IMG/VR virus record: IMGVR_UViG_3300025767_000169
Span: 1 to 20,374 of that record
Origin: a virus
DNA: 20,374 nucleotides
Strand: one strand, 5' to 3'
Below, piece by piece: positions 667 to 16,590 of the stretch. How positions within the stretch are numbered: position 1 is the stretch's first letter; each line of letters begins with the position of its first letter. A model generated the notes under the pieces. That model searched no databases. It was not told the origin of the DNA and saw only the letters and a list, made by a program, of their open reading frames with translations. The translations under genes and the position numbers were made by a program.

Positions 667-675
667 TTTGGCGGT

Positions 676-714
676 GGGGGGACAGGGAAACTTGTCTCCC
701 TACTTTTCTTTTTT
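676..714 (+). terminator. Intrinsic terminator after capsid gene
   Basis: A 10-bp stem (677-686 with 691-700, two G-T wobbles) encloses a GAAA tetraloop at 687-690 and is followed by the T-rich tract at 701-714. This is a textbook rho-independent terminator. It starts 10 bases after the capsid stop codon and would partly insulate the tail genes from capsid transcription. Confidence 0.9.
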
Positions 715-3170: not shown

Positions 3171-5129
3171 ATGGCAGGGTATACTAGACAATCGACATTT
3201 GCTGATGGTGATATTATCCAAGCAGCAGACTTTAATGACGAGTATAACCAACTTGTAAATAGTTTTGACAATACAACAGGCCATAAACATGATGGCACTA
3301 CAGGTGAAGGTCCGGTCATTGGTTTGATTGGTGATCCCGGTGTTGTTTCTCCTATTAACAAAGTTGTAGTAGATGATACTAATAATCGTGTCGGTGTTTT
3401 TGTAGATGCAGCAGGTGCTGGTTCATCTGTTGAACAAGTACGCTTTGAAGATGGGGTTATTGTTCCTGTAACAACTAACGACATTGACTTAGGTACAGCT
3501 TCTCTTCAATTCAAAGATGGTTACTTTGCTGGCAACCTTGAAGTAGCGGGTGTGTCTGTTGGCGGCGGTGCTTCTATTGGTACAATCCTTGACGAAGATG
3601 ATATGGTATCAGATGATGATACTGCCCTTGCTACACAACAGTCTATTAAAGCATATGTGGATGCACAGGTAACTGCACAGGACTTAGATGTTGCTGCTGA
3701 TACAGGAACGGCTGCAGTAGACTTAGACAGTCAGTCATTTACTGTAACTGGTGGTACGGGCATTGATACATCTGCTACAGGGCAAGCTGTAACTATTGAT
3801 ATTGATGCTACTGTAGCTACTCTAACGGATACGCAAACACTTACAAACAAAACTATTGATGCTGCAAGTAATACCCTTTCAAACATTGATACAACTATGC
3901 TTGCTGCAGGTGTACTCGATACTGACCTTACATCTGTATCTCTTACAGATGATACCATCCCTTCAGCTAAAGCTACAAAAGATTACATTGATACCCAGCT
4001 TACTGCGGAAGACCTAGACTTCCAAGGAGATACAGGCGGCGCACAGAGTATTGATTTAGATAGTCAGACTCTTACAATCACTGGCGGTACAGGTATTGAT
4101 ACTACAGGTTCAGCACAAACTCTTACTATTGATATTGATGCGACTGTAGCTACACTTACTGATACACAAACTTTAACAAATAAAACATTGACAAGTGCTG
4201 TACTTGACGGTACAATAAGTGGAACTTCTATTAAAGATGAAGACACTATGGTATCAGATAGTGATACACATCTTGCTACTCAACAATCAATTAAAGCATA
4301 CGTAGATACTCAAGTAGGTGGTGTTTCAACTCCTACTGGTAATGAACTAGAGAATGTTGTTGAGGACGTTACACCGCAGCTTGGTGGTGATTTAGATGTA
4401 AACGGTAATGCCATTGTTTCTGTAACTAATGGTGATATAGCAATTACACCAGACGGTACAGGTTCAGTAATCTTAGATGGTCTGTCTTACCCACAAGCAG
4501 ATGGTACTGCAGGTCAGGTTATTAAGACAGATGGTGCAGGTAACTTAACTTTTGCTAGTCCTGCTACTGGTCTTGCAGACGTTGTAGATGACACTACCCC
4601 ACAGCTAGGCGGTACACTAGATACTAATGGACAACTTGTTCAGTTCGGTGACAGTGCAAGTGCTACAGATGATCGTTTACAGTTTGGTGCTGGTCAAGAA
4701 CTAGAAATTTATCAAGACCCAAATAACAATCACAGTACTATTGTTTCTAGTGCTATTGGTGGTTTGTACATGAAGTCTGATAGTGTCGGACTACAAAGCG
4801 AAGATGGTACTAAAACTTTCGTATACGCTACAGGCGGTGGTGTATCTATCAATGACGGTTTAGGTGTAACACGATTAAAGACTACAGTAAATGGAACAGA
4901 AGCATCTGGTTATCTACAGTTTAATGATACAAGTGGTGGCAGCTTTAACTATCTTCGTTTCCAAGCACCTTCTACTGTAACAACAAATACAACATTTACC
5001 TTCCCTGATGGTGACGGTACGTCAGGTCAAGCACTTGTGACAGATGGTTCGGGTACTTTGTCATGGGATACACCTACTATTGTAGAAACTGACCCGTCTG
5101 CATTAGCATTCGCAATCGCATTAGGATAA
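3171..5129 (+). CDS. Tail fibre protein, repeat-rich shaft
   Basis: The protein has 652 residues. The ATG at 3171 has AAGGAG at 3158-3163 with a 7-base gap. The N-terminal part, with QAADFNDEYNQLVNSFD and TGHKHDG, is the usual opening of marine-phage tail fibres and probably docks to the tail. Residues about 137-385 form an imperfect tandem repeat with SIKAYVDAQ, TGGTGIDT, IDIDATVATLTDTQTLTNKT and related blocks, typical of trimeric shafts. TPQLGGDLD and TPQLGGTLD (residues about 401 and 476) form a second repeat pair. The C-terminal part contains FPDGDGTSGQALVTDGSG, a common closing module of such fibres. No intramolecular chaperone or peptidase domain is recognised. The gene is followed by a promoter and the small tip genes, which suggests that it is the arm carrying or neighbouring those tips. 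Confidence 0.8.
   Translation: MAGYTRQSTFADGDIIQAADFNDEYNQLVNSFDNTTGHKHDGTTGEGPVIGLIGDPGVVSPINKVVVDDTNNRVGVFVDAAGAGSSVEQVRFEDGVIVPVTTNDIDLGTASLQFKDGYFAGNLEVAGVSVGGGASIGTILDEDDMVSDDDTALATQQSIKAYVDAQVTAQDLDVAADTGTAAVDLDSQSFTVTGGTGIDTSATGQAVTIDIDATVATLTDTQTLTNKTIDAASNTLSNIDTTMLAAGVLDTDLTSVSLTDDTIPSAKATKDYIDTQLTAEDLDFQGDTGGAQSIDLDSQTLTITGGTGIDTTGSAQTLTIDIDATVATLTDTQTLTNKTLTSAVLDGTISGTSIKDEDTMVSDSDTHLATQQSIKAYVDTQVGGVSTPTGNELENVVEDVTPQLGGDLDVNGNAIVSVTNGDIAITPDGTGSVILDGLSYPQADGTAGQVIKTDGAGNLTFASPATGLADVVDDTTPQLGGTLDTNGQLVQFGDSASATDDRLQFGAGQELEIYQDPNNNHSTIVSSAIGGLYMKSDSVGLQSEDGTKTFVYATGGGVSINDGLGVTRLKTTVNGTEASGYLQFNDTSGGSFNYLRFQAPSTVTTNTTFTFPDGDGTSGQALVTDGSGTLSWDTPTIVETDPSALAFAIALG
3579..4325 (+). 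repeat. Imperfect tandem repeat in tail-fibre shaft
   Basis: Three related coding units occur at about 3579-3860, 3945-4196 and, as a partial unit, 4221-4325. Each begins with an acidic SDDDT-like box and IKAYVDxQ. The first two continue through LDSQ, TGGTGIDT and TDTQTLTNKT. The nucleotide sequence has diverged at third codon positions, so the repeat is old or under protein-level selection. Confidence 0.8.
4188..4216 (+). promoter_or_regulatory. Possible internal promoter in fibre gene
   Basis: TTGACA at 4188-4193, a 17-base spacer, then TACAAT at 4211-4216. This is 11 of 12 consensus bases at optimal spacing, and the upstream bases are A/T-rich. It lies inside coding sequence and could be coincidental. 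Transcription would begin near 4223. Confidence 0.3.
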
Positions 5130-5136
5130 AAAGTAC

Positions 5137-5165
5137 TTGACAAACAGTGCTTAATATGGTATAAT
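5137..5165 (+). promoter_or_regulatory. Perfect consensus sigma70-type promoter with extended -10
   Basis: TTGACA at 5137-5142, exactly 17 bases, then TATAAT at 5160-5165, preceded by TGG at 5157-5159, which completes the extended -10 motif TGnTATAAT. It lies in the 58-base gap between the tail fibre stop and the next gene. Transcription should start near 5172, leaving a short leader with GGAG at 5178-5181. A small dyad (GTATA 5159-5163, TATAC 5169-5173) overlaps the -10 and could be an operator, but it is weak. This should be a very strong promoter for host RNA polymerase. Confidence 0.85.
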
Positions 5166-5187
5166 TAGTATACAATTGGAGTAATAA

Positions 5188-5532
5188 ATGGCAAACGCAT
5201 TCTTATCAGAAACACAGACAGCAGTCGGGACATCTCCTGTAACTGTTCTTACCTGTGGTGCAGCAACAGAAACAACCATTATTGGTCTGAGTGTCTCTAA
5301 CATTGTAACTAGTCAGATTACAGTAGATGTACAGCTTGATGCTTCAGGTCGTACATCTGGTGCAGAAGCTAGTGTTTACCTTGTTAAAGATGCTCCTGTA
5401 CCTGTAGGTGCTTCTTTGGTGGTAGTCGGTGGAGACCAGAAAGTGGTCATGGAACCGGGTGATGTAGTTAAAGTTACATCAGATACTGCATCATCTGCTG
5501 ATGTTGTTTTAAGTCATCTTGACATTACGTAA
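5188..5532 (+). CDS. Small beta-rich virion-associated protein
   Basis: The protein has 114 residues. The ATG at 5188 has GGAG at 5178-5181 with a 6-base gap. The sequence is an even alternation of short beta strands (SPVTVLTCGAATETTIIGL, ITVDVQLD, GASLVVVGGDQKVVME, PGDVVKVTSDTASS). This pattern recurs in small proteins of marine phages that sit near tail fibre genes and are usually annotated as structural or hypothetical. No cysteine-rich, nucleic-acid-binding or enzymatic motif is visible. It is the first gene behind the consensus promoter, so it is probably made in large amounts. A decorating or tail-tip role is inferred from context; the specific function is unknown. Confidence 0.6.
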   Translation: MANAFLSETQTAVGTSPVTVLTCGAATETTIIGLSVSNIVTSQITVDVQLDASGRTSGAEASVYLVKDAPVPVGASLVVVGGDQKVVMEPGDVVKVTSDTASSADVVLSHLDIT

Positions 5533-5547
5533 GGAATAAGATATAAT
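5519..5547 (+). promoter_or_regulatory. Second perfect -35/-10 pair, overlapping a start codon
   Basis: TTGACA at 5519-5524, a 17-base spacer, then TATAAT at 5542-5547. The -35 lies in the last codons of the gene at 5188 and the last two bases of the -10 are the first two of the ATG at 5546-5548. Transcripts would start near 5554, inside the anchor gene, and so could serve only the genes from 6058 onward. The match is 12 of 12, but function is uncertain because the site is constrained by two coding regions. Confidence 0.5.
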
Positions 5548-6061
5548 GGCATATCTTGGTAATCATCCTTCTGTATCTTATAGCACAGTATCCTATCAGG
5601 ATTTAACTGGTGGCACTGGTACAGGATTTACACTTGACTACCCTGCAGGTACTCCTCAAGATATTGAAGTATTTGTAAACAATGTTCGCCAAGAACCGGG
5701 CGTTGCTTATACGGTTAGTGGTACTAGCCTTACCATGACAGGCAGCATTGTAGCTACGGATGATTTCTATGTCGTGTTCCAAAGCAAAGCCCAGCAGACT
5801 ATTACACCGGGTCTAGGCACAATTACACAGGCAATGTTTGCACCGGGGCTGTCTCTTGGCGCAGGTTACTTCCAAGGGGATAACGGTGCGACAGGTGACA
5901 CAACAAATGGTAAAGCTGATATCTTCCGTGTACATGAGCAAGAATTGAATACTAATACTACAATTGCCGCAACAGACAATGCTTTGTGTGCTGGGCCATT
6001 GACAATCGCAACAGGGGTAACGCTGACGGTAACAACCGGCGGTAATCTGGTGATAGCATGA
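5546..6061 (+). CDS. Tail-tip anchor protein, cassette 1
   Basis: The protein has 171 residues. AAGGA at 5531-5535 lies about 10 bases before the ATG. The N-terminal part (MAYLGNHPS, then DIEVFVNNVRQ and YTVSGTSLTMTG) is a small beta domain common at the start of marine-phage tail fibres. Residues about 88-105 contain TPGLGTITQAMFAPG, a familiar linker. The C-terminal part, with TIAATDNALCAGPLTIATG, resembles the tip domain that closes many tail fibres. The gene at 9052 shares this N-terminus and the C-terminal AGPxT block, so the two are paralogues. Its stop overlaps the next start (ATGA at 6058-6061), with GGTGA at 6049-6053 as ribosome site. It probably joins the tip proteins to the fibre or tail; this role is inferred. 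Confidence 0.65.
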   Translation: MAYLGNHPSVSYSTVSYQDLTGGTGTGFTLDYPAGTPQDIEVFVNNVRQEPGVAYTVSGTSLTMTGSIVATDDFYVVFQSKAQQTITPGLGTITQAMFAPGLSLGAGYFQGDNGATGDTTNGKADIFRVHEQELNTNTTIAATDNALCAGPLTIATGVTLTVTTGGNLVIA

Positions 6062-6447
6062 GTGAACTAAGAACAGACACAATCACTGCCAGCGATGGCA
6101 CAAGTCCTGTCACGCTGACGAAGCAGAGTGCGCCAAAGGCGTGGTTAAGTTATGACCAAAGCGTACCAACTGTTAATGACAGCTTTAACCAAAGTTCAAC
6201 CACAGACGTTTCCGTGGGAAGATATAACTTAAACTTTACCAACAGTATGACGAATAAACATTATTCGGTGGCGGGTGTGGGTGCTTCTACGGTTATTTTT
6301 TGTCAGAGAACTACTGATAATAACGCAACCAATGCAAGTTCAGCATCATCCTGTAGGGTTGAATCATTCTATTTCACAGGGTCTTCTTTTGTTAATTACT
6401 ATGATTCAAAACCAACAACTATGGTTGTTAACGGAGACTTAGCATGA
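6058..6447 (+). CDS. Small tail-tip module A (slot 1, cassette 1)
   Basis: The protein has 129 residues. The N-terminal 30 residues carry DGTSPVTLTKQSAPKAW, nearly identical to the corresponding part of the gene at 9510 (DGTSPVELTKQSAAKAW). The middle follows the pattern shared by the whole family: a Lys-Ala-Trp box, DSFNQSSTTD, then YNLNFTNSM. After about residue 70 the sequence has no clear similarity to its paralogues. It ends in NGDLA. The start overlaps the stop of the anchor gene, and its own stop overlaps the start at 6444, so translation is coupled on both sides. A role as a receptor-contacting tip protein with a conserved docking end and a variable outer end is inferred. Confidence 0.6.
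   Translation: MSELRTDTITASDGTSPVTLTKQSAPKAWLSYDQSVPTVNDSFNQSSTTDVSVGRYNLNFTNSMTNKHYSVAGVGASTVIFCQRTTDNNATNASSASSCRVESFYFTGSSFVNYYDSKPTTMVVNGDLA
6433..6447 (+). promoter_or_regulatory. Coupled junction: GGAG in Gly-Asp codons, ATGA overlap
   Basis: GGAG at 6433-6436 encodes part of Gly-Asp near the end of module A and lies 7 bases before the ATG at 6444, which overlaps the TGA at 6445-6447. Confidence 0.75.
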
Positions 6448-6875
6448 GTGAGATAAAAGTAGACAACCTCAACGGCAAGACCTCCGCTGGTGACATTACT
6501 GTTACATCTGAAGGTGGTGCGGCGACTATGCAGTTGCAGCAGGGGTTGGCGAAGGCTTGGGCAAGTTTTAATCAAGTTGGCACAAATTCAATAAATGACA
6601 GTTTGTCCGTTTCAACTTTAAGTGATTTAGGGACAGGATTAACGCAAATAAATATAACGAACTTGTTTTCAACAAGTAATTACACAACTTCTGGTAGTAC
6701 CGTAGGTTCTACACAAAGTTGGGCTAGCACTTCTATGGTGGCAAATGGAAATGGAAATGACGCAAATACAACAACATATTATAGAATAGCTTGTCGTGAT
6801 ACTTTTCCTTCTAACAGTGGTACTTCTAGGGACTTTTCAAAAGTAAGCTGTGTAAATAACGGAGACCTCGCATAA
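6444..6875 (+). CDS. Small tail-tip module B (slot 2, cassette 1)
   Basis: The protein has 143 residues. Its N-terminal segment, KVDNLNGKTSAGDITVT followed by LQQG, pairs specifically with the gene at 9890 (KVDALQGITSAGDITIT, LQDG). The family boxes follow: LAKAWASFNQ, NDSLSVSTLSDLGTG and a strand-rich segment. The outer part from about residue 80 is rich in Ser, Thr and Asn and contains two Cys (ACRD, SCVN). It ends in NNGDLA. The start overlaps the previous stop and its stop overlaps the start at 6875 (TAATG). The function is inferred from the array context only. Confidence 0.6.
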   Translation: MSEIKVDNLNGKTSAGDITVTSEGGAATMQLQQGLAKAWASFNQVGTNSINDSLSVSTLSDLGTGLTQINITNLFSTSNYTTSGSTVGSTQSWASTSMVANGNGNDANTTTYYRIACRDTFPSNSGTSRDFSKVSCVNNGDLA

Positions 6876-6877
6876 TG
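6861..6877 (+). promoter_or_regulatory. Coupled junction: GGAG in Gly-Asp codons, TAATG overlap
   Basis: GGAG at 6861-6864 lies 10 bases before the ATG at 6875, whose A is the last base of the upstream TAA. The same bases encode the terminal Gly-Asp-Leu-Ala of module B. Confidence 0.75.
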
Positions 6878-7267
6878 GCTGGAAAAATTATAGCAGATCA
6901 AATCGAACACAGCACCGCAGGTTCTCTGGATACGTCTTATGTGGTGAATGGTAGTGCGAAGGCTTGGGTTCGGTTTAACGGCACTGGTACTTTAGCGGTT
7001 AATAAAAGTCTAAACACAAGTTCGGTTTCGGATATTGGTACTGGCAATTATGACCATAACTACACATCGTCTTTTTCGGATGCTGTTTATAATTACGTTC
7101 ACGGTGCAAAAGACGCTGACGATGGTCTTGGTATTCCTACGCTTGGTTCAGACCCAAGAGTGTCTGACACAACTTCAAAAGTCCGTTTGATTCATAATTA
7201 CCCCACCAATATAGGTTTTTATGATGGAGTTGCAATTTGCAATAATATATTCGGAGACTTAGCCTAA
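6875..7267 (+). CDS. Small tail-tip module C (slot 3, cassette 1)
   Basis: The protein has 130 residues. The segment SYVVNGSAKAWVRF pairs specifically with the gene at 10291 (EYVANGSAKAWINF). An 18-base stretch at 6950-6967 is identical to 10369-10386, which supports direct descent or exchange. Family boxes: NKSLNTSSVSDIGTG and YDHNYTSSFSD. The outer half, with several charged and aromatic residues, is unlike the paralogues. It ends in FGDLA. Both ends are translationally coupled (TAATG at the start and at the end). Docking by the N-terminus and receptor contact by the C-terminus are inferred. Confidence 0.6.
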   Translation: MAGKIIADQIEHSTAGSLDTSYVVNGSAKAWVRFNGTGTLAVNKSLNTSSVSDIGTGNYDHNYTSSFSDAVYNYVHGAKDADDGLGIPTLGSDPRVSDTTSKVRLIHNYPTNIGFYDGVAICNNIFGDLA

Positions 7268-7269
7268 TG
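7253..7269 (+). promoter_or_regulatory. Coupled junction: GGAG in Gly-Asp codons, TAATG overlap
   Basis: GGAG at 7253-7256 lies 10 bases before the ATG at 7267, which shares its A with the TAA ending module C. Confidence 0.75.
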
Positions 7270-7743
7270 ACCCAGACACCACAGTTCAAAGGCACTCACC
7301 TATTTGACCGTCTGTGCTGGGCAAAGGAAAACCTTGAGCCACATCAGTCAGACTATCGGGTGGTTTATGAGGACAGCGTTGATGAGTGCGCCAAGATACT
7401 TGTGCCTGACCCTAACTGGATGGCGTGTGCATTGCAGGGCGGTATCCTGCCACCAGTGTGGGTGTATCACGAACTGGCAAAGGATGAGGCACAGCCTGAC
7501 TTTAAGAAGCACACCAGAGGTTACTTGCTGCACAACACAGAACCCGTAGGGGCAATGACAGAAGAAGAAGCGATTGAATACCTAATTATGAAAGATTGCC
7601 CGCAGCATGTGTGGCGCAATTGGGATACAGGCAACAAACCTAAGATGGTTATCTGCCGCAAGGAACAGTTACCAAGCACACGTGAGTGGCGCAATGCTTG
7701 GAAAATAACTGAAGAACTCAGCGTCACTGATTTAGCAGCATAG
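7267..7743 (+). CDS. Unrecognised protein with R-x-W-R-N-A-W motif, possible tail assembly factor
   Basis: The protein has 158 residues and is charged and soluble in character, unlike the Ser/Thr/Asn-rich tip proteins beside it. It contains aromatic and acidic stretches (DSVDECAKILVPDPNWM, GGILPPVWVYHEL) and near the C-terminus PSTREWRNAWKI. The motif Arg-x-(Trp or Phe)-Arg-(Asn or Gly)-Ala-Trp recurs in the next gene. Small proteins with this motif are frequent next to tail fibre genes in marine phages, and I read them as assembly chaperones or fibre accessory factors. There is no signal peptide or membrane segment. The start overlaps the stop of module C, and the stop is followed by AGGAG at 7743-7747 for the next gene. 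The function is inferred from motif and place. Confidence 0.5.
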   Translation: MTQTPQFKGTHLFDRLCWAKENLEPHQSDYRVVYEDSVDECAKILVPDPNWMACALQGGILPPVWVYHELAKDEAQPDFKKHTRGYLLHNTEPVGAMTEEEAIEYLIMKDCPQHVWRNWDTGNKPKMVICRKEQLPSTREWRNAWKITEELSVTDLAA

Positions 7744-7752
7744 GAGAAAACA

Positions 7753-8127
7753 ATGGCTGTAACAACATACATCGTAGATAAGGACGGCAATCAGATTGAT
7801 GCTTCAACTGCAACTGTCCCTGCTGACCGTGCCTTTCGTGGTGCATGGTCATTGAGTGGCAATGTCATTTCAGAAGACATGACTTCTGCCAAAGCAATCT
7901 TCAAGGACAAGGTTCGTGAAGTTCGTGGTCCACTGCTAGATGCAGAAGACGTAGTGTACATGAAGGCACTAGAAGCTGACGATGCAACTGCTAAAGCAGC
8001 ATCTGTAGCTAAGAAGTCTGCCCTTCGTGATGCACCTGCAGCGGCTGCTATTGATGCAGCTACTGACATTGCAAGCCTCAAGGCAGCTTGGGATGCAGAC
8101 ACACTTGGTGATAGCCCTTACGCATAA
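7753..8127 (+). CDS. Tail fibre assembly chaperone-like protein
   Basis: The protein has 124 residues. The ATG is preceded by AGGAG at 7743-7747 with a 5-base gap. It starts with a short beta segment, followed by PADRAFRGAWSL, then an acidic, alanine-rich helical region (SAKAIFKDKVREVRGPLL, YMKALEADDATAKAASV) and SALRDAPAAAAID. The Phe-Arg-Gly-Ala-Trp box followed by a long helix and an ALRD box is characteristic of small marine-phage proteins that follow tail fibre genes, and the ALRD box recalls the tail-assembly chaperone family seen more clearly at 8659. It probably helps fold or trimerise the fibre tips and may not be a virion component. A hairpin spans its stop codon. Confidence 0.5.
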   Translation: MAVTTYIVDKDGNQIDASTATVPADRAFRGAWSLSGNVISEDMTSAKAIFKDKVREVRGPLLDAEDVVYMKALEADDATAKAASVAKKSALRDAPAAAAIDAATDIASLKAAWDADTLGDSPYA

Positions 8128-8137
8128 TGCGTAGGGG
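8115..8137 (+). other. Inverted repeat spanning a stop codon
   Basis: Arms 8115-8123 and 8129-8137 form a 9-bp stem (one T-G wobble) around a 5-base loop holding the TAA at 8125-8127. No T tract follows, so it is not a standard terminator. A second, overlapping option (TAGGG 8132-8136 with CCCTA 8142-8146) is exclusive with the first. Confidence 0.55.
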
Positions 8138-8166
8138 TCATCCCTATTTGACCGCTGGAGAACTAG

Positions 8167-8628
8167 ATGGCACTTAGTAAGATTAAAGACGAGTCAACAG
8201 ACGGCAGTATTGCTGGCGGTAAGGTGTTGCAGGTTGTGCAGGGGACTACTTTGTTTGGTACAACTGTATCTAATGATACCTATGTTGCAACTACCCTCAC
8301 GGCTACAATTACACCTACAAGCGCATTAAACAAAATATTAGTCTTCGGTCAAGGTTTTGCTGTTGCAAACCAAAGCCAAGCACAACCTCAAATAAAATTA
8401 TATAGAAACGGTTTAGATATTTCTCCGGTAAATTACGGTTTTGGTAATATATATTCTAATAACGGTGGGTATAACGAAGGTATGTTGGTATTTTCATTGC
8501 TTGATTCACCTTCTTCTTCTTCTGCAACTACATACACAATTTATTTGAGAAACAACAACGTTGGTAACGCTAGCTTTGGCGCAGGAGATAGATATTCTGT
8601 TATTACCCTAATGGAGATTGCCGGATGA
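8167..8628 (+). CDS. Tail-tip/receptor-binding-like protein
   Basis: The protein has 153 residues, with a ribosome site at GGAG 8157-8160. It opens with ALSKIKDESTDGSIAGGKVLQ, a leader seen in many marine-phage tip proteins, then TTLTATITPTSALNKILVFG, a strand pair typical of small beta-sandwich tip proteins. The remainder is rich in Asn, Tyr and Ser (YGFGNIYSNNGGYNEG, SSSSATTYTIYLRNN). It lacks the Lys-Ala-Trp box of modules A to F and so belongs to another family. GGAG at 8613-8616 near its 3' end precedes a 9-codon ORF whose ATG overlaps this stop. The role in host recognition is inferred from composition and position. Confidence 0.55.
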   Translation: MALSKIKDESTDGSIAGGKVLQVVQGTTLFGTTVSNDTYVATTLTATITPTSALNKILVFGQGFAVANQSQAQPQIKLYRNGLDISPVNYGFGNIYSNNGGYNEGMLVFSLLDSPSSSSATTYTIYLRNNNVGNASFGAGDRYSVITLMEIAG

Positions 8629-8654
8629 CCTTAATTTTAGACACACAGGAGTAA
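8625..8654 (+). pseudogene. Nine-codon coupled ORF, possible relic of a tip module
   Basis: The ORF reads MTLILDTQE and then TAA at 8652-8654. Its ATG overlaps the stop of the gene at 8167 (ATGA at 8625-8628) and has GGAG at 8613-8616 with an 8-base gap. Its last codons contain the AGGAG (8647-8651) used by the gene at 8659. Many marine tail-tip proteins begin MTLxLDG, so this may be the truncated head of a deleted gene, or a short coupling ORF kept to pass ribosomes on. Confidence 0.35.
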
Positions 8655-8658
8655 ACAA

Positions 8659-9042
8659 ATGGCATCAATATCAGAAGCCTTAACCGAACTAGGCATCACC
8701 GAATGGGTACTCCGTGGCGAACCAACCACTGAGGCTGAGTTCAACGAGATGTTCCGTAAAGTAACTGGTGCGGATGCTAATGGCAGTGCTATTGAATCCT
8801 CCACACCCAGCGACTTTGGCGTAACTTGGTCACAGGTATCGGCTAAGAAAACAGAACTTGTTAATGCAGAGCCTATGCGCTTGCTTCGTGAGGAACGAAA
8901 CCGTTTGATTGCAGAAACAGATTGGTGGGCATCAAGTGACCTTACTATGACATCTGCACAGACAGCATATCGCCAAGCATTACGAGACATTACATCCAGT
9001 GCCACATCACTAGACGATGTTACTTGGCCTACGAAACCATAA
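8659..9042 (+). CDS. Phage tail assembly chaperone (Phage_tail_APC-like)
   Basis: The protein has 127 residues. AGGAG at 8647-8651 lies 7 bases before the ATG. The C-terminal half carries the family signature in order: LLREERNRLIAETDWWASSD (residues about 75-94), then AYRQALRDI (about 105-113) and a terminal VTWPTKP. This Arg-xx-Arg-Asn-xx-Leu-Ile-xx-Thr-Asp-Trp to Tyr-Arg-Gln-x-Leu-Arg-Asp to Trp-Pro layout is what I know as the tail assembly chaperone family found at the end of many tail fibre operons. The N-terminal half (ALTELGITEWVLRGEPTTE) is less conserved. The product should act in the host cytoplasm during assembly of fibres or tips. It separates the two tip cassettes. Confidence 0.7.
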   Translation: MASISEALTELGITEWVLRGEPTTEAEFNEMFRKVTGADANGSAIESSTPSDFGVTWSQVSAKKTELVNAEPMRLLREERNRLIAETDWWASSDLTMTSAQTAYRQALRDITSSATSLDDVTWPTKP

Positions 9043-9051
9043 GGAAGAACG

Positions 9052-9513
9052 ATGGCATATATAGGTAAATCCCCACAGAACGGTGTTCGTAACCGGTACA
9101 TCTACCAAGCTACTGCTGGTCAGACTACCTTTACTGGTAGTGACGCAGACAGTAAAGTGCTTACATACACAGATGGCCTATACATTGACGTATATCAAAA
9201 TGGTGTTTTGCTAAAACCTAATACTGACTATACTGCTACTAGCGGTACAAGTATTGTACTCACTGCCTCTGCTAGTTTAAATGACGTAGTTGAGATGATT
9301 GTTTATGACATCTTTTCTGTAGCTAATACTTATACTAAAGCACAGAGTGATGAACGCTACCCATTCAAGGGTAATGACAGCATCATCCGTTTGAACGGTC
9401 AGACTATCAGCGCAGACATTACGATTGACAGTGATGAGAATGGTGTATCCGCTGGACCTATCACACAGGACAATGCCACTGTCACTGTTAATGGATATTG
9501 GAGTATCGTATGA
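9052..9513 (+). CDS. Tail-tip anchor protein, cassette 2
   Basis: The protein has 153 residues. AAGGA follows directly on the previous stop, before the ATG at 9052. The N-terminus (MAYIGKSPQNGV, then YIDVYQNGVLL and YTATSGTSIVLTAS) matches the anchor at 5546 (MAYLG, DIEVFVNNVRQ, YTVSGTSLTMTG). The middle has TYTKAQSDERYPFKGNDSI, a common fibre linker with a Tyr-Pro-Phe box. The C-terminus (DENGVSAGPITQDNATVTVNG) matches the AGPLT tip block of cassette 1. Its stop overlaps the next ATG (9510), and GGAG at 9500-9503, inside the Trp-Ser codons, is the ribosome site. Duplication of the cassette 1 anchor is the simplest reading. Confidence 0.65.
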   Translation: MAYIGKSPQNGVRNRYIYQATAGQTTFTGSDADSKVLTYTDGLYIDVYQNGVLLKPNTDYTATSGTSIVLTASASLNDVVEMIVYDIFSVANTYTKAQSDERYPFKGNDSIIRLNGQTISADITIDSDENGVSAGPITQDNATVTVNGYWSIV

Positions 9514-9890
9514 CCAGCGTATTGAATGTAGATAGCATTGCGGCAAAGGACGGTACGTCACCTGTTGAGTTGACTAAGCAGAGTGCGGCAAAAGCGTGGA
9601 GCAAGTTAAACGGTACTGGAACAATTAGTTTATATGATTCATTCAATATATCTTCTGTCGCAGATAATGGGACGGGAGATTACACGCACACAATGACATC
9701 GGCTATGTCTAACGCAAACTATTCTCATACTTTTACTGCTCGAACTTATTTTGCAGTCTTTAGAGATGGTCAAACGGCAACCACTACAACCTATCGCATA
9801 GGCCACATTTACAATGATGGTGGTGGTGGCAACTTTGGATATTCAGACGGAAGCTATATCTCCGCAAATATTATAGGAGACCTAGCATAA
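9510..9890 (+). CDS. Small tail-tip module D (slot 1, cassette 2)
   Basis: The protein has 126 residues when started at ATG 9510, which has GGAG 6 bases upstream and overlaps the stop of the anchor gene; an in-frame TTG at 9498 is less likely. The N-terminus shares DGTSPV, LTKQSA and KAW with module A at 6058. Family boxes follow: YDSFNISSVADNGTGDY and MTSAMSN. The outer part is glycine- and tyrosine-rich (IYNDGGGGNFGYSDGSY) and unlike module A. It ends in IIGDLA. It is coupled to the next gene by TAATG at 9888-9892. It is inferred to occupy the same position as module A on a second tip. Confidence 0.6.
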   Translation: MTSVLNVDSIAAKDGTSPVELTKQSAAKAWSKLNGTGTISLYDSFNISSVADNGTGDYTHTMTSAMSNANYSHTFTARTYFAVFRDGQTATTTTYRIGHIYNDGGGGNFGYSDGSYISANIIGDLA

Positions 9891-9894
9891 TGGC
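9873..9894 (+). repeat. 22-bp direct repeat, copy 1 (module junction)
   Basis: An exact 22-base repeat of 10274-10295. It contains AGGAG (9875-9879), the terminal Asp-Leu-Ala codons of module D, the TAA at 9888-9890 and the ATG at 9890 of module E. It therefore acts as stop, ribosome site and start together. Confidence 0.8.
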
Positions 9895-10291
9895 GAGTAT
9901 TCTTAAAGTAGATGCGCTACAAGGCATCACATCAGCGGGTGATATCACGATTACCAATGGCACGACAACACAGAAGTTGCAAGACGGCGTTGTATCTACA
10001 TATTCTCTGTATGACCAGCAAAATACTACGGTTGATATGAGCATAAACGTCACTAGCATCACAGATAGTGCCACAGGAAGATACGGACTAAATTTATCCA
10101 ATAACTACACTACTGCTAAACAATATATCATTGGGCATAGCGCACAATCTTGGTTTTCTAATGCAGGTGCAGACACTTCACCTCTATATGGCGTATCAAC
10201 TGCAAGTGTTTTGGAGTTTATTCATGTAGAAGGTGGCACTACAAGAGACACGCAGTATAATGCGGATAGTGTGATAGGAGACCTAGCATAA
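9890..10291 (+). CDS. Small tail-tip module E (slot 2, cassette 2), flanked by direct repeats
   Basis: The protein has 133 residues. KVDALQGITSAGDITIT and LQDG pair it with module B at 6444. The Lys-Ala-Trp box of the family is replaced by STYSLYDQ, which makes this the most divergent member. DMSINVTSITDSATGRY and LNLSNNYTTA match the later family boxes. The outer half (HSAQSWFSNAGADTSPLYG) has no similarity to module B. It ends in VIGDLA. Start and stop are both of the TAATG type. The gene lies exactly between two copies of a 22-bp direct repeat 401 bp apart, so one recombination step could remove or add it as a unit. Confidence 0.6.
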   Translation: MASILKVDALQGITSAGDITITNGTTTQKLQDGVVSTYSLYDQQNTTVDMSINVTSITDSATGRYGLNLSNNYTTAKQYIIGHSAQSWFSNAGADTSPLYGVSTASVLEFIHVEGGTTRDTQYNADSVIGDLA

Positions 10292-10295
10292 TGGC
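10274..10295 (+). repeat. 22-bp direct repeat, copy 2 (module junction)
   Basis: Exact copy of 9873-9894, including AGGAG at 10276-10280, the Asp-Leu-Ala codons ending module E, the TAA at 10289-10291 and the ATG at 10291. Confidence 0.8.
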
Positions 10296-10689
10296 AAGCG
10301 AACTTAGAGTAAACACCCTAAAGGATGCCGCTGGGAACAACAGCGTGGGTATGGAGTATGTTGCCAACGGTAGTGCGAAGGCTTGGATTAACTTCACAAG
10401 TATCTCAAGTACATCAGCTAGAGATTCACTTAATCACGCAAGTTTAACGGACAATGGAACAGGTGACACTACGTTAAATTTTACCAACTCTTTAAGTAAC
10501 AACGATTATTGTTTTTCTGGTAATGCCCAAAGAAATGACCCAACTGAGGATGCAGAAATGACCTTGTATCAAGACCAAGACAGTTCTTTAGCTACTAATA
10601 GTATGCGTGTTATTACTAAAAAAAGTTCTGTCACAGACCAAATAGACGTTCTTGGTGGGTTTGCTAGTGCAACAGGAGACCTCACATGA
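10291..10689 (+). CDS. Small tail-tip module F (slot 3, cassette 2)
   Basis: The protein has 132 residues. EYVANGSAKAWINF pairs it with module C at 6875, including an identical 18-base stretch at 10369-10386. Family boxes: RDSLNHASLTDNGTGD and LNFTNSLSNNDY. The outer half is acidic and Ser-rich (RNDPTEDAEMTLYQDQDSS). It ends in ATGDLT, a variant of the usual ending. AGGAG at 10674-10678 lies 7 bases before the ATG of the following gene, and that ATG overlaps this stop. The function is inferred from the array. Confidence 0.6.
   Translation: MASELRVNTLKDAAGNNSVGMEYVANGSAKAWINFTSISSTSARDSLNHASLTDNGTGDTTLNFTNSLSNNDYCFSGNAQRNDPTEDAEMTLYQDQDSSLATNSMRVITKKSSVTDQIDVLGGFASATGDLT
10675..10689 (+). promoter_or_regulatory. 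Coupled junction: GGAG in Gly-Asp codons, ATGA overlap
   Basis: GGAG at 10675-10678 lies 7 bases before the ATG at 10686, which overlaps the TGA at 10687-10689. Confidence 0.75.
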
Positions 10690-11789
10690 GTAAAGCAGCA
10701 GAACTAGCCGCACTGATTGGTTCGCAGTCGGCGTTGTCAAACCGGAACATGATTATCAATGGTGCGATGCAGGTGGCACAGCGGGGAACATCATTTAGTT
10801 CACTAAGTGCAAGCGCATACACTTGCGACAGGTGGCAGCTACAAGTAGCTGGTGCGGGAAGGGGAACTGTTACACAAGAAAGCAGTGGTGGCCCTGCTAG
10901 TCTTAAAGATAATTTTTTGCGTGTCACTGTGGCAACCGCTGATAGCAGCGTGGCCTCAAGTGATATGCAAGTGTTAAAGCAAGTTATAGAGGGTCATGTC
11001 GCAGCGTTTACAGATGCTGGAACTTCAGACGCAAAGACGCTTACATTGTCCTTTTATGTTCGTTCTAGTGTGACTGGAACTTTTAGTGCAACTTTGTACA
11101 CAAACTTTAGCAGCCCTAGTGCAGTTTCGTATCCTGCTGAATACACAATTTCATCTGCAAACACTTGGGAACAAAAAACAATTACGTTTCCAGCTTTTAC
11201 AACGAGTTCATCACTTGTTTCAAGCGGATATACAACGGGTGAGTTTTACCAAGTTCGTTTCGCTTTAATGGCTGGTTCTGATAACACAGGGACAGCTAAT
11301 CAATGGAATAGTGCAAACGACTTTGCTTCAACAAATCAAACAAATCTTTTTGCAACATTAAGTGCAACTTGGGATATTACAGGCGTACAGCTAGAAGTCG
11401 GCGAGACAGCCACACCGTTTGAACACCGCAGCTTTGGCGATGAGTTGGCTAGGTGTCAGCGGTATTATGAAAGCATTCAAGTAATGAATGGGTATTTTTC
11501 AACAGGTCAAGCGTTTACTTCTTCACAAGCCGCAGGTGCTACTTTAAATTTCAAAGTAACAAAAAGGGCTATTCCAACATTAACAGTTCCTGCTGCTGGA
11601 AATACATCAGGCACTTGGGGGTTTGTAGGAAGTAATGGGAGTTATGCTACTATAGGCGGTCATTCGACTTACAGCACAGTGGATTTTTTTAGCATAGAGG
11701 CGAGTGGCTACAGCGGTCTTGGCGCAGGAAATGCTTCTATGATTTATTCTAGTGGGGCTACTGAAGCAAAAGCAGATGCGGAGTTATAA
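10686..11789 (+). CDS. Tail-tip adhesin with carbohydrate-binding-like beta domain
   Basis: The protein has 367 residues. The segment SNRNMIINGAMQVAQRGTS followed by AYTCDRWQ is a well-known opening of marine-phage tail proteins. The next 180 residues alternate short strands (TLTLSFYVRSSVTGTFSATL, WEQKTITFPAF, EFYQVRFALMAG) and read as a jelly-roll like a carbohydrate-binding module. Residues about 230-260 carry ITGVQLEVGETATPFEHRS and ELARCQRYY, the usual end of that domain. The last about 105 residues (from YYESIQVMNG) are Ser/Gly/Thr-rich and probably the variable receptor-contacting end. The gene closes cassette 2 and is coupled to module F by ATGA. Sugar binding is inferred from the fold pattern; no binding residues can be assigned. 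Confidence 0.65.
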   Translation: MSKAAELAALIGSQSALSNRNMIINGAMQVAQRGTSFSSLSASAYTCDRWQLQVAGAGRGTVTQESSGGPASLKDNFLRVTVATADSSVASSDMQVLKQVIEGHVAAFTDAGTSDAKTLTLSFYVRSSVTGTFSATLYTNFSSPSAVSYPAEYTISSANTWEQKTITFPAFTTSSSLVSSGYTTGEFYQVRFALMAGSDNTGTANQWNSANDFASTNQTNLFATLSATWDITGVQLEVGETATPFEHRSFGDELARCQRYYESIQVMNGYFSTGQAFTSSQAAGATLNFKVTKRAIPTLTVPAAGNTSGTWGFVGSNGSYATIGGHSTYSTVDFFSIEASGYSGLGAGNASMIYSSGATEAKADAEL

Positions 11790-12205: not shown

Positions 12206-14161
12206 ATGGCAATGTTTAAAGCATTTAAACCAGAAGCAATGAATAAGATTGCAAGTGCTATGGGGTATACTGGTGATATGAACCAGTTCCAGCAGTACAT
12301 TGAACAAGACCCCGCACGACAGCAACAGATGAATATGTATACTAATGCTGCTAAAACTATGGCTAAAGGCGGGTATGCACGTAAAGGATATGCAGTAGGT
12401 GGTACTGTTATCAATCCATCAGGCACACAAGCTGCTACCCCCGTTGCTGTAGCACCTACCACAACTCCTGCAGGTCAACCAGAGATTGGTCAGTTTTCTG
12501 TAGAGCAAATGTATCAGCCGGGATTACCTATTGGTGGTACAACTATTGCTGCTGAAACACAGACAGATACATCACAGGATATTACTGCAGGTACAGGTGC
12601 TATTACAGGACAGGTAGCAGTACCAACTGCAACAGCAGCTACAGCGCAGGCTGCTCCTGTAACTCAAACGCAAGCTAATGTAATGCAAGCCTCTGCTGCG
12701 GCTCCTGCAGTGGATGCAGCTATGAATGCTACACAGGCAGCACAAGCTAACCCACAAGACCCTCGTGCGCAGATTGCGGCTGCACAGCAGACTACTTCAT
12801 CAGTAGGTAATCTTCAGGCAGCACAGGGCAATGCTTTCCTTATCAACACCCCTATTCAGCGTAACCTACAAGCAGGTGAATTGATTAGTGGTACAGGTGT
12901 AGATGCTGCACGTGCTAGTGCATTGGCTGCACAGACAGATGCTGCTGCTGCACAGGCTAATCCTAGCCAACAGGCAATGGTACAGGATCAACTATCTGGT
13001 TTGATGAATCAGTTTGTAGGTGGTGCTACACCAGCATGGGCATCAGGTGCTATCCGTACTGCTAATGCTACTATGGCTGCACGTGGTCTCAGTGCTTCAT
13101 CTATTGCTGGACAGGCTATTGTACAGGCAGCTATGGAATCAGCTATGCCTATTGCAATGGCTGATGCTGCTACTGTAGCTAAGTTTGAATCACAGAACTT
13201 ATCTAACAAACAGCAGAGTGCAATGCTTGCTGCTGAACAACGTGCTAAGTTCATGGGTCAGGAGTTTGACCAAGAGTTTCAACAGAAGGTAATGAACGCT
13301 AGTAAGATTAGTGACATTGCTAATCAGAACTTTACAGCAGAACAGCAAGTACAGCTAGAAAATAGTCGTGCTGCTAATACAATGAACCTGCAGAACCTGT
13401 CAAACAATCAGGCTCTTGTAATGGCAGAGGCTTCTGCTTTAGCACAGCTAGATTCACAGAACCTGAATAACCGTCAAGCTACTGCTGTACAAAACGCACA
13501 AAACTTCTTGCAAGTTGATATGGCTAACCTATCTAATCAGCAACAAACAGATTTGTTTAAAGCGCAGCAGCGTGTACAATCTTTGTTTACTGACCAAGCC
13601 GCTACCAATGCTGCAGCGCAATTTAATGCATCTAGTCAGAACCAAGTTGACCAGTTCTTTGCTAGCTTGGGTTCACAGGTATCACAGTTTAATGCAACGC
13701 AACAAAATGCACAACAGCAGTTTAATGCAGGACAGACTAATACAGTAGAAAGATTTAATGCTGAACTTAATAATCAACGTGATCAATTTAATGCACAGAA
13801 CCAGCTAGTTATTGCACAAGCTAATGCACAGTGGCGTAGACAAATTGCTACAGCAGATACTGCAGCAGTTAATCGTGCTAATGAACTTAACGCTAATGCT
13901 ATCTTGGATATTAGTAAGACTGCCTATGATAATTTATGGAATTACTATAATGACACAATGGAGTGGGCTTGGACTTCTGGAGAAAATGACTCTGACAGAA
14001 TTGTTCAAATGGCTTTAGGTGAACTTTCCGCTAAAACAAGTATAGATATGCAGCAATTAAAAACCAACGCAGAGGAAAGTGGTGCTATTGGCGGTTTCTT
14101 TAGTAGCTTGTTAACTAGCCAAACTGCAGGAAGTCTAGTTGGAAAAATCTTTGGTATTTAA
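12206..14161 (+). CDS. Internal virion (ejection) protein with 11-residue repeats
   Basis: The protein has 651 residues and is very rich in Ala, Gln, Asn and Thr. Residues about 54-66 carry KGGYARKGYAVGG, a motif that recurs in marine-phage structural proteins. Residues about 70-250 are low-complexity Ala/Thr/Gln/Pro sequence. Residues about 332-560 are built of 11-residue units, with Leu, Phe or Ala recurring every 11 positions (for example Phe 473, 484, 495, 506, 517 and 528). This predicts a long right-handed coiled coil. The C-terminal part has YDNLWNYYNDTMEWAW and ends in a Gly-rich hydrophobic segment (GAIGGFFSSLLTSQTAG) that could touch membrane. By place it corresponds to the first internal core protein of T7-like phages. 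A tape-measure-like role is the alternative. Confidence 0.6.
   Translation: MAMFKAFKPEAMNKIASAMGYTGDMNQFQQYIEQDPARQQQMNMYTNAAKTMAKGGYARKGYAVGGTVINPSGTQAATPVAVAPTTTPAGQPEIGQFSVEQMYQPGLPIGGTTIAAETQTDTSQDITAGTGAITGQVAVPTATAATAQAAPVTQTQANVMQASAAAPAVDAAMNATQAAQANPQDPRAQIAAAQQTTSSVGNLQAAQGNAFLINTPIQRNLQAGELISGTGVDAARASALAAQTDAAAAQANPSQQAMVQDQLSGLMNQFVGGATPAWASGAIRTANATMAARGLSASSIAGQAIVQAAMESAMPIAMADAATVAKFESQNLSNKQQSAMLAAEQRAKFMGQEFDQEFQQKVMNASKISDIANQNFTAEQQVQLENSRAANTMNLQNLSNNQALVMAEASALAQLDSQNLNNRQATAVQNAQNFLQVDMANLSNQQQTDLFKAQQRVQSLFTDQAATNAAAQFNASSQNQVDQFFASLGSQVSQFNATQQNAQQQFNAGQTNTVERFNAELNNQRDQFNAQNQLVIAQANAQWRRQIATADTAAVNRANELNANAILDISKTAYDNLWNYYNDTMEWAWTSGENDSDRIVQMALGELSAKTSIDMQQLKTNAEESGAIGGFFSSLLTSQTAGSLVGKIFGI
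13199..13885 (+). repeat. 33-bp-periodic coding repeat (hendecads)
   Basis: About twenty consecutive 11-residue units. From residue 332 to 453 the units alternate between Leu/Phe starts (332, 354, 376, 398, 420, 442) and mostly Ala starts (343, 365, 409, 431, 453; Ser at 387), a 22-residue super-repeat with QN(L/F)xN boxes. After a 2-residue register loss the units resume at 473 with xQFNA boxes. Confidence 0.85.
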
Positions 14162-14172
14162 GGAATAAAGCA

Positions 14173-14409
14173 ATGAGTATAGAGCGTCAACCCGCAAAAC
14201 TTGCATTAGTAAATATGCGTAATGCTGTATCTGAAGCACAAAAAAATAAAGTAAAAGTTAAATCGCAAGGTAGAACAGGTTTACTTTCTCCTAATAATGT
14301 GTTACAATCACGTACCAAAACTGAAAACAAAACTAAAACAGAAAGCCAGAAGGTATTAGACTATATGCTTGCTATACGTGAAGCTATGTCAACTGAGGAA
14401 AAAGCATAA
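14173..14409 (+). CDS. Small basic protein, function unknown
   Basis: The protein has 78 residues. AAGGAATAAAG just before the ATG provides the ribosome site. The sequence is Lys-rich and polar (SEAQKNKVKVKSQGRTG, SRTKTENKTKTESQK), with a short C-terminal helix (KVLDYMLAIREAMSTEE). It has no membrane segment and no recognised domain. Its stop overlaps the next start (TAATG at 14407-14411), so it is co-translated with the gene at 14409. Its place among internal virion genes suggests a small virion or assembly protein; I do not recognise a family. Confidence 0.55.
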   Translation: MSIERQPAKLALVNMRNAVSEAQKNKVKVKSQGRTGLLSPNNVLQSRTKTENKTKTESQKVLDYMLAIREAMSTEEKA

Positions 14410-14918
14410 TGGCATTTAGAGAAACATCGGATTTTGATGCTCCTATTCCGGGTCAGGGTTTAACCGCTGAACTGGGTTCTCGTCCGTGGCAAACTCCACC
14501 TGAGTTTACTACTTTAGAAGAGGGCGTAGACTTTTACGTGTCTCGCATAATTCAACCAAAAATGGCTGCTCAACTTTTAGACATCATTGAAATGAAAATT
14601 CCATTAACTGCTATTGCAGAAACATTAACGCTTGGTGGTGTAATGCAGGGACTTCATACTGTTGACGTGGGTATCCTTGTTAATCCTATTCTTGTAGAGT
14701 TGATGGAAGGTCTAGCAAAAAATGCGGAAGTTCCATACAAAGTTGGAGACACTGACGGAGAAAATATTCCAGACAAAGGTATTTTAACTAAAGCTATGGC
14801 TAGTCTTTCTGAGATTGACACTGAAGAATTAGAGCAAGAAATGTCATATGAAGAAGATAGCAAAGAAGATGTATCTGTAGAACCAAAGGGTTTAATGTCT
14901 CGTAAAGGAGCAATGTAA
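14409..14918 (+). CDS. Conserved marine-phage virion-region protein, function unknown
   Basis: The protein has 169 residues. The N-terminus (FDAPIPGQGLTAELGSRPWQ, with a TPPEFTTLEEGVDFY continuation) and LGGVMQGLHTVDVGILV are familiar from marine-phage proteins located next to internal virion genes, but they carry no known function. The first 115 residues look like a compact helical domain. The remainder is acidic and probably disordered (IDTEELEQEMSYEEDSKED). The ATG overlaps the previous stop. AAAGGAG at 14904-14910, near the 3' end, serves the next gene. A scaffold or chaperone role for the neighbouring core proteins is possible but not shown. Confidence 0.6.
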   Translation: MAFRETSDFDAPIPGQGLTAELGSRPWQTPPEFTTLEEGVDFYVSRIIQPKMAAQLLDIIEMKIPLTAIAETLTLGGVMQGLHTVDVGILVNPILVELMEGLAKNAEVPYKVGDTDGENIPDKGILTKAMASLSEIDTEELEQEMSYEEDSKEDVSVEPKGLMSRKGAM

Positions 14919-14919
14919 T

Positions 14920-16587
14920 ATGGCTTTTAGATTACAATCGTTTCTAGCAGGTGCAGCTAAAGAAGCAACAAAAAATATACGAGCATTAGATGAAGAGTAC
15001 CGGGAGTCTCTAAAAAATACTGCTGCAAACTTAGCTAAAGAGGCTCAAGCCGTACGTAAAGAGCGTACACAAGCTATACTTGATTATAGTGACAAAGGCA
15101 AAAAATTAAAACGAGATTACAAATTATCAGATGCACAAATTCAAACCTTGTTATCTGCAGGTACTGATTCGTATGAGTCTTTTGTAAACTCAATTAGAGC
15201 AGGCAATCAAGCTGCTAAACTTGCCGATCCTAATGCTACGTTTGATGCAGCTACTTTTGCTCAAAGTTTGTTTCAAGGACAGGCTGCCGAAGAAGGTATC
15301 CTTTCTTTGGATCAACAAGCGCAGGCTTATGCTGCTCGTAGAGTTCCTTCGACTATTGACCTTCAAACTGCTGCTAGTGGAATTTCTGCAGGAACACAAA
15401 CAATGTTAACAGGTGTAAGTCCTGAAGCTGTAGCAGAGAGACTTCGTGGTAGCGTAGGAGATATACCTGATTATACTGGCCCTGCTATGGGTGAAACTGG
15501 ACTCAGTGTTTCTGGTCAAACAGCACTTACTCCAGCGGAATTAATTGCATTGCAGGGTGCAAGAGCAAGTGTAGCTAAAACGGAAGCTGAAATTGGCGGT
15601 ATTAAAGCAACCACTAAATTTACTGGACTCAAAGGCGATTTAATAAAAGCGCAAACAACTGCCACTGAAATTACGAATGAGGTACTTCCAGAACAGTTAC
15701 GTGTAGACCTAGATAAAGGCTATGCTTCAACCGCATTAACAGAAGCGCAGACCCAAAAAGTAGAACAAGATACTTCTACAGGAATCCTTCAGCAAGCTAA
15801 ACTCAAAGAAGAACTCATTAACTACCAAAAGTTTGGTGAGAAAAACGAGCAACTTGCACTTGACTTACTTGAAGCTAAAATTACACAAGCTAATCGCCCG
15901 GCTGATCTTGAAGAGTTACAGGCTACGTTTGTGTCTCTCGCCAGCGACTCACGTGCAAAAGCAGGGCAGCTTGACGAAAATGATCCAGAAGCCATTAGAC
16001 TAAATTCTCAAGCTTCAGCTTATGATACACGTGCAGCAAGTGTAGCTAACATGATTAAAGCACAAGATACGTCTGCTAGTACCGACTGGTCAAAAGGTTC
16101 ACCAGAAAAACGCTTTGCTAGCTTGCTTAAAACAAATGTTCAAGCAGCTAATATTTCTGGTTCACTTAATTCCGCAGGTAATTGGGAATGGGATTTTGCA
16201 AATAAACGTCCTGCTTACTATACCGCCTATGCAAACACTGTAGATCAGTATTCTCAATTATACGGCACTTCAGGAAATACAGGTTTAGTATCCTCTCTGC
16301 AAAATAAAGAACAGCTAAATAATGTGCTTAACCAGTGGTCACAAGAAGGAAATTTTGTTAACGCAAATACTTCAAGACCAGCCGCAACAAGCACGGGGCA
16401 AGTCACTAATGTTGACTTTGGTTCAAAGAGTCTAGAGGATTTAGCTGAGTTGCAGAACTTGCAGCCCGGCGATATTGCAAGAATACAAGCACAAGTTTAT
16501 GATAGCAAGTCAAGTTCTGTGGTATCAAAAGAAGTTGTTGCTATGTATAGCACACAAGGTGAGTGGATTACAGCAGGAGACCTCTAA
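14920..16587 (+). CDS. Putative internal virion protein, helical
   Basis: The protein has 555 residues. GGAG at 14907-14910 lies 9 bases before the ATG. The N-terminal 70 residues are strongly helical and charged (EEYRESLKNTAANLAKEAQ, VRKERTQAILD). Residues about 205-330 are also predicted helical, with many Ala, Lys, Glu and Gln (ARASVAKTEAEIGGIKATT, EKNEQLALDLLEAKIT). The C-terminal third carries more aromatic residues (NWEWDFANKRPAYYTAYAN). There is no membrane segment or enzyme motif. Size, composition and position between two other large late genes fit the middle internal core protein of a T7-like phage. It ends in TAGDL, and that DNA supplies the ribosome site of the next gene. Confidence 0.55.
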   Translation: MAFRLQSFLAGAAKEATKNIRALDEEYRESLKNTAANLAKEAQAVRKERTQAILDYSDKGKKLKRDYKLSDAQIQTLLSAGTDSYESFVNSIRAGNQAAKLADPNATFDAATFAQSLFQGQAAEEGILSLDQQAQAYAARRVPSTIDLQTAASGISAGTQTMLTGVSPEAVAERLRGSVGDIPDYTGPAMGETGLSVSGQTALTPAELIALQGARASVAKTEAEIGGIKATTKFTGLKGDLIKAQTTATEITNEVLPEQLRVDLDKGYASTALTEAQTQKVEQDTSTGILQQAKLKEELINYQKFGEKNEQLALDLLEAKITQANRPADLEELQATFVSLASDSRAKAGQLDENDPEAIRLNSQASAYDTRAASVANMIKAQDTSASTDWSKGSPEKRFASLLKTNVQAANISGSLNSAGNWEWDFANKRPAYYTAYANTVDQYSQLYGTSGNTGLVSSLQNKEQLNNVLNQWSQEGNFVNANTSRPAATSTGQVTNVDFGSKSLEDLAELQNLQPGDIARIQAQVYDSKSSSVVSKEVVAMYSTQGEWITAGDL

Positions 16588-16590
16588 ATG
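16576..16590 (+). promoter_or_regulatory. GGAG in Gly-Asp codons upstream of the large core gene
   Basis: GGAG at 16576-16579 lies 8 bases before the ATG at 16588, directly after the TAA at 16585-16587. The same Gly-Asp-Leu ending is used at the tip-module junctions. Confidence 0.7.

Follow-up and report, generated by a model that had tools for sequence, protein, structure and literature searches.

A conserved host-type promoter sequence ahead of the exchangeable fibre-tip genes of HMO-2011-type podoviruses

Internal promoters in phage late regions

Internal promoters in late operons are already known in several phages, and a full-consensus one that is owned by the phage backbone and located at an exchange junction, as described here, is an unusual variant of them. 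The comparisons that follow hold as far as the accessible text of the cited papers goes. In LUZ100 and T7, the coat gene is controlled by a local promoter and by a terminator located right after the gene (PMC10134795). The phages considered here resemble these two in having a promoter before and a terminator after the coat gene and several promoters in the structural region, but the late promoters of T7 and LUZ100 are read by the phage polymerase, whereas those of the present phages are of host type, with the perfect one placed ahead of the fibre-tip block. The morons of lambdoid and P22-like phages, as in epsilon34, carry their own promoter within a late operon, near tailspike or fibre genes (PMC2629481). 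The locus shares with them a promoter of its own inside a late operon, the proximity of fibre genes and the exchangeable nature of the block; unlike in morons, no terminator is found just after the array, the block consists of virion genes and the promoter stays with the backbone. Host sigma70 sites are also predicted in the genomes of phages 7-11 and phiEco32, where additional internal ones have been proposed as boosters (PMC4331800), a role similar to the one considered here. In those phages, however, the host-type sites serve early genes, the late promoters are phage-specific and the tabled sites do not reach 12/12 matches. Finally, sigma70-type sites are predicted in Polarivirus skadi, a SAR11 phage without an RNA polymerase of its own (PMC10504331), but these lie near replication genes, and the available part of that paper describes no conserved promoter before a tip array. 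An open-literature search, to whose scope the original HMO-2011 paper did not belong, returned no published description of the tip-junction promoter in the text accessible to it, and the word "promoter" is absent from PMC9038755 and PMC6918029.

The locus and its promoter sequence

The stretch of DNA analysed (the window) is a viral record of 20,374 bases; among named phages, Puniceispirillum phage HMO-2011 is closest to it. Both have in common the gene order coat, tail, stabilisation and fibre genes followed by small fibre ORFs, and the stabilisation protein of the window is 77% identical to that of HMO-2011, which by sequence comparison places the window as a fragment of an HMO-2011-type podovirus, a member of an abundant group of marine phages. 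The window's long ORFs include no DNA polymerase gene, which in HMO-2011-type podoviruses would carry a partial DnaJ domain, the record being a fragment. The features discussed are collected in Table 1.

Table 1. Features of the window around the tip-junction promoter and in the adjoining late region.
Feature	Position	Strand	Description	Basis
Intrinsic terminator after coat gene	673..704	+	14-pair stem, T-rich tail, about -24 kcal/mol	
Tail fibre protein	3171..5129	+	652 aa, ends ..AFAIALG-stop at the exchange junction	ORF list, comparison
-35 hexamer	5137..5142	+	TTGACA	window sequence; kept in relatives
Spacer	5143..5159	+	17 bases, ends in TGg (extended -10)	window sequence
-10 hexamer	5160..5165	+	TATAAT	window sequence; kept in relatives
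Predicted mRNA leader	5172..5187	+	16 bases, Shine-Dalgarno-like GGAG	inferred from -10 position and sequence
Virion protein, phrog_1276 family	5188..5532	+	114 aa, predicted jelly-roll; candidate first gene driven	
Second 12/12 promoter-like site	5519..5547	+	TTGACA-17-TATAAT	
Fibre protein	5546..6061	+	171 aa, second array gene	
Array of small fibre/tip ORFs	6058..11789	+	last is a 367-aa fibre protein (10686-11789)	
Further late ORFs	12206..20157	+	651, 78, 169, 555 and 1189 aa; within putative read-through range of the promoter	

The promoter sequence at 5137-5165 lies on the plus strand inside the 58 bases that separate the fibre ORF from the 114-aa ORF, both on the same strand, in the middle of a run of plus-strand structural genes. 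A promoter scan of the window, scored against the E. coli sigma70 consensus (-35 TTGACA and -10 TATAAT, 16-18 bases apart), found all twelve hexamer bases matched. The preliminary description had called the hexamers, the 17-base spacer and the TGn extension all consensus, and this is borne out at a level above that of shuffled sequence: two exact 12/12 sites are present in the window against a mean of 0.007 in 1000 dinucleotide shuffles, seven of which contain at least one such site and none two. Weaker promoter-like sites are at chance level (45 found, 42.4 expected). One of 11/12 is located at 4188, within one of the imperfect internal repeats of the fibre ORF. An Rfam search of the window gave no match.

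The other exact site, 5519-5547, had been missed in the preliminary description. The TTGACA of this site falls within coding sequence and the TATAAT shares bases with the ATG at 5546; a transcript started here would therefore miss the start of that gene. Among 70 loci this site is 12/12 in ten and at most 9/12 in the others, and in a set of 379 loci it always accompanies a 12/12 first site (11 of 11).

Conservation and distribution among relatives

Relatives of the 114-aa gene were collected by ranked searches, and the resulting loci are mutually related, their counts not being independent. A search with the window protein gave 82 rows (the window, HMO-2011 and 80 loci), of which 43 carry a 12/12 promoter just upstream of the gene, each with a spacer of 17 bases, and the other 39 reach at most 9/12. 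The HMO-2011 protein retrieved 80 loci with 58 promoters at 12/12, two at 11/12, nine at 10/12 and 11 lower, and the HTVC104P protein 80 loci with 76 at 12/12 (spacer of 17 bases in 75 and of 16 in one) and four at 11/12. In the pooled set, an exact promoter is present just upstream in 225 of the 336 loci that contain the downstream gene. A further sample was drawn on the basis of the stabilisation protein upstream and of nothing else, 33 of its 80 loci being dropped for lack of a tip match or of sufficient upstream sequence; the 47 readable junctions divide into 25 at 12/12, two at 11/12 and 20 lower. Three of these 20 (L322, L326 and L371) contain a decayed copy, CTGACC..TATAAG, with the spacer as in an intact relative, and two have an exact promoter about 525 bases upstream of the tip gene. 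Exact promoters 470-560 bases upstream of the tip gene are seen in L359, L375, L130, L135, L137, L121, L143, L145 and L087, a distance that leaves space for an extra gene between the two.

Selection on the site was assessed by parsimony on a tip-gene tree of 177 distinct gene-promoter pairs with at least 10/12 matches and a 17-base spacer, lower scores, other spacers and repeated pairs being left out. Seven changes were counted for the twelve hexamer columns together, compared with 23.7 for each spacer column and 15.8 for each third codon position on the same tree. Because of the 10/12 threshold, heavily decayed copies escape notice in this set; few sites score between 9 and 12. The boxes and their 17-base spacing are under purifying selection and the spacer sequence is free to vary, which is the pattern of a sigma70 site. 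Because the boxes have remained nearly unchanged while the DNA between them has changed, the site is very probably a real and strong start site using the host RNA polymerase. The motif is moreover strand-specific: in the 379 loci (2.97 Mb, with a few double counts from loci overlapping on one contig), it is found 305 times on the late strand but nowhere on the opposite strand, and the reversed motif occurs four times. The 305 copies comprise 221 at the tip junction, 11 at the second site and 73 elsewhere, many of which look coding, e.g., a group located some 2.6 kb upstream in phages like HTVC104P. That some 12/12 sites elsewhere arise in coding sequence, and that weaker matches in the window do not exceed expectation, would fit a chance match to the consensus, an explanation which is nonetheless barely conceivable, contradicted as it is by the conservation on the tree and also by the shuffles.

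Elements next to the hexamers are less constant. TGn precedes the -10 in 60 of 88 distinct promoters of relatives, and TA follows it in most relatives. A small dyad on the -10, through which repression had been suggested, does exist in the window (GTATA-N5-TATAC). Among the 88 distinct promoter-leader sequences of relatives, just 20 have it, with two different spacings, and since its position is not kept, repression through it is weakly supported. Dyad arms of at least five bases are nevertheless present in 58 of the 88 sequences, compared with about 24% in a rough shuffle that was not fully matched, so that an operator function keeps some probability.

The presence of the promoter follows the phage backbone. 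Taking a stabilisation-protein homologue upstream as the mark of an HMO-type tail backbone, and considering those 208 loci in which 4.2 kb or more of upstream sequence is available (128 of the 336 rows have less and were left out), a promoter at or near the junction is found in 155 of 177 loci with this backbone versus none of 31 without it. The 177 loci include 143 with 12/12 at the tip gene, eight with 10-11/12, four with the promoter within 700 bases and 22 without; these 22, among them CRP-9, CRP-13 and HTVC115P, indicate that the promoter is not essential to the plan of these phages. In other tail backbones the same tip gene has a tight junction without promoter, as in L009, which contains T7-like internal virion and fibre families and a tip protein 85% identical to that of the window. 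The possibility that tip genes bring the promoter along was rejected, since tip genes up to 94% identical to a query lie in other backbones and lack it. As tip genes are found in several backbones and the promoter is not, the promoter does not go with the tip genes; judged from sequence comparison, it belongs to the backbone. Among 13 isolates examined, HMO-2011, HTVC103P and HTVC104P carry the junction promoter, which is absent in the other ten (CRP-9, CRP-13, HTVC115P, HTVC019P, HTVC035P, CRP-143, HTVC026P, 023Pt_psg01, Lederberg and S-TIM61).

The fibre or other preceding genes of quite different phages end alike at this point, often in ..AIALG or ..MAIAL, and are followed by a tip gene starting with ATGGC. 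These similar gene ends directly before ATGGC (5129-5188 in the window, and L393-L400) constitute a shared exchange junction. A Bacteroidetes-binned contig (L401), probably a phage contig in the bin, also contains a tip gene with the exact promoter. As tip genes meet different backbones at this junction, the conserved boxes might themselves be a recombination or exchange signal. This is highly improbable, since it is only the hexamers and their separation by 17 bases that persist, the spacer sequence being replaced, and the same junction occurs in other backbones without the site.

Transcription of the late region

The preliminary description regarded such an optimal host promoter as seldom present in phage late regions, a statement that has to be qualified for this group, in which near-consensus sites precede other late blocks, i.e., the coat, terminase and portal genes. 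TTGACA-16-TATAAC is located upstream of the coat gene in five of ten isolates (HMO-2011, CRP-1, CRP-9, CRP-13 and CRP-345) and in many contigs, and HTVC115P has exact sites before the terminase and near the portal gene. In the 55 kb of HMO-2011, only two exact 12/12 sites are present, one at the tip junction and one at 53396 on the minus strand, upstream of the first leftward genes. In several relatives, though not in all loci, a strong terminator was found behind the coat gene or behind the small gene next to it. Exact promoters were also observed upstream of an Hsp20-family gene in HTVC104P (L157; 19548-19576, minus strand), with a near-identical site in HTVC103P (19131-19159, minus strand), and about 4.7-5.1 kb upstream in L058 (5277-5305), L037, L038, L054 and L060, where it stands before a small ORF that precedes the tail gene. 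A similar promoter, some 4.3-4.4 kb upstream, occurs in L012, L053 and L056, three loci without the one at the tip gene.

T7-type RNA polymerase (PF00940) was not detected in any of 42 records including ten whole isolates, a set to which the 20-kb fragment of the window does not belong, and for HMO-2011-type isolates, in which no such polymerase is detectable, host-type late promoters are thus expected. The same search matched two of eight other phages, HTVC019P and CRP-143. A link between absence of the promoter and possession of a phage RNA polymerase was considered and holds only partly: HTVC019P and CRP-143 have the polymerase and lack the site, and HTVC035P, HTVC026P, Lederberg and S-TIM61, outside the group, lack the site and a detectable T7-type RNA polymerase. 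The site could alternatively be a strict late promoter that needs a phage factor or is recognised by a host RNA polymerase which the phage has modified, as the late set of HMO-2011 has TATAA(C/T)TA in common, which extends past the hexamers in agreement with the TA seen in most relatives. We consider this unlikely, because a full consensus should need no help and twelve HMO-2011 proteins gave no match to a sigma factor or antiterminator family, many of them being matchless or matching families of unknown function only.

Our preferred reading, which we hold with considerable confidence although it is built on sequence comparison, is that 5137-5165 is a promoter for the host polymerase with its main sigma factor that restarts transcription, making the tip array a separately initiated and strongly expressed late unit. 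Strong and independent initiation of the array, as had been proposed, is supported as likely by the conservation of the hexamers and the restriction of this host-type promoter to one lineage. Host RNA polymerase with the main sigma factor would bind the site and start near 5172, producing a leader of 16 bases with GGAG. In HTVC104P-like phages, in which 11-12 bases separate the end of the -10 from the ATG, the leader would be of about 4-6 bases and the message nearly leaderless. The strong terminator behind the coat gene would reduce read-through and the tip promoter would boost the array again, its purpose probably being one of dosage. Terminator-like sites on the plus strand after 5137 sit within ORFs (5398, 11062 and 16899), and the scan of the window found none between the array and the late ORFs that follow, so the internal virion genes behind the array are probably part of the same separately initiated unit.

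The array may also be transcribed early, as had been suggested. That the promoter serves the tip block early or in the prophage, as in a moron-like cassette, in place of boosting late expression, is improbable. Such a role would agree with the integrase gene of HMO-2011 and with the expectation that a full consensus could fire on entry without a phage factor. However, the array has no terminator behind it and is followed by other virion genes, the block occurs in other backbones without the promoter, and the three relatives obtained in one scan of a genome collection all come from metagenome-assembled bins.

A strong promoter would be explained by a high-copy role of the first product of the unit. 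The 114-aa protein is predicted to be an all-beta jelly-roll (pLDDT 92.9), and its best structural match is the KHP40 phage capsid cement protein (Z 9.8 over 103 residues at an rmsd of 2.9), which is tied with unrelated jelly-rolls. The fold does not show the role, and the protein may be a high-copy jelly-roll acting as a tip or cement protein.

More tentatively, the late genes of HMO-2011-type phages could be expressed without any late transcription factor, their doses being set by graded host-type promoters and a terminator, with the backbone providing a "promoter socket". A tip cassette from an unrelated phage, plugged in at the ..ALG-stop/ATGGC junction, would thereby gain a full-consensus promoter. 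In all, a start site under such selection provides a precise prediction that can be tested in cultured phages, and suggests that the late genes of these phages are transcribed via the host polymerase only, with a control element owned by the backbone and set apart from the exchangeable fibre-tip genes.
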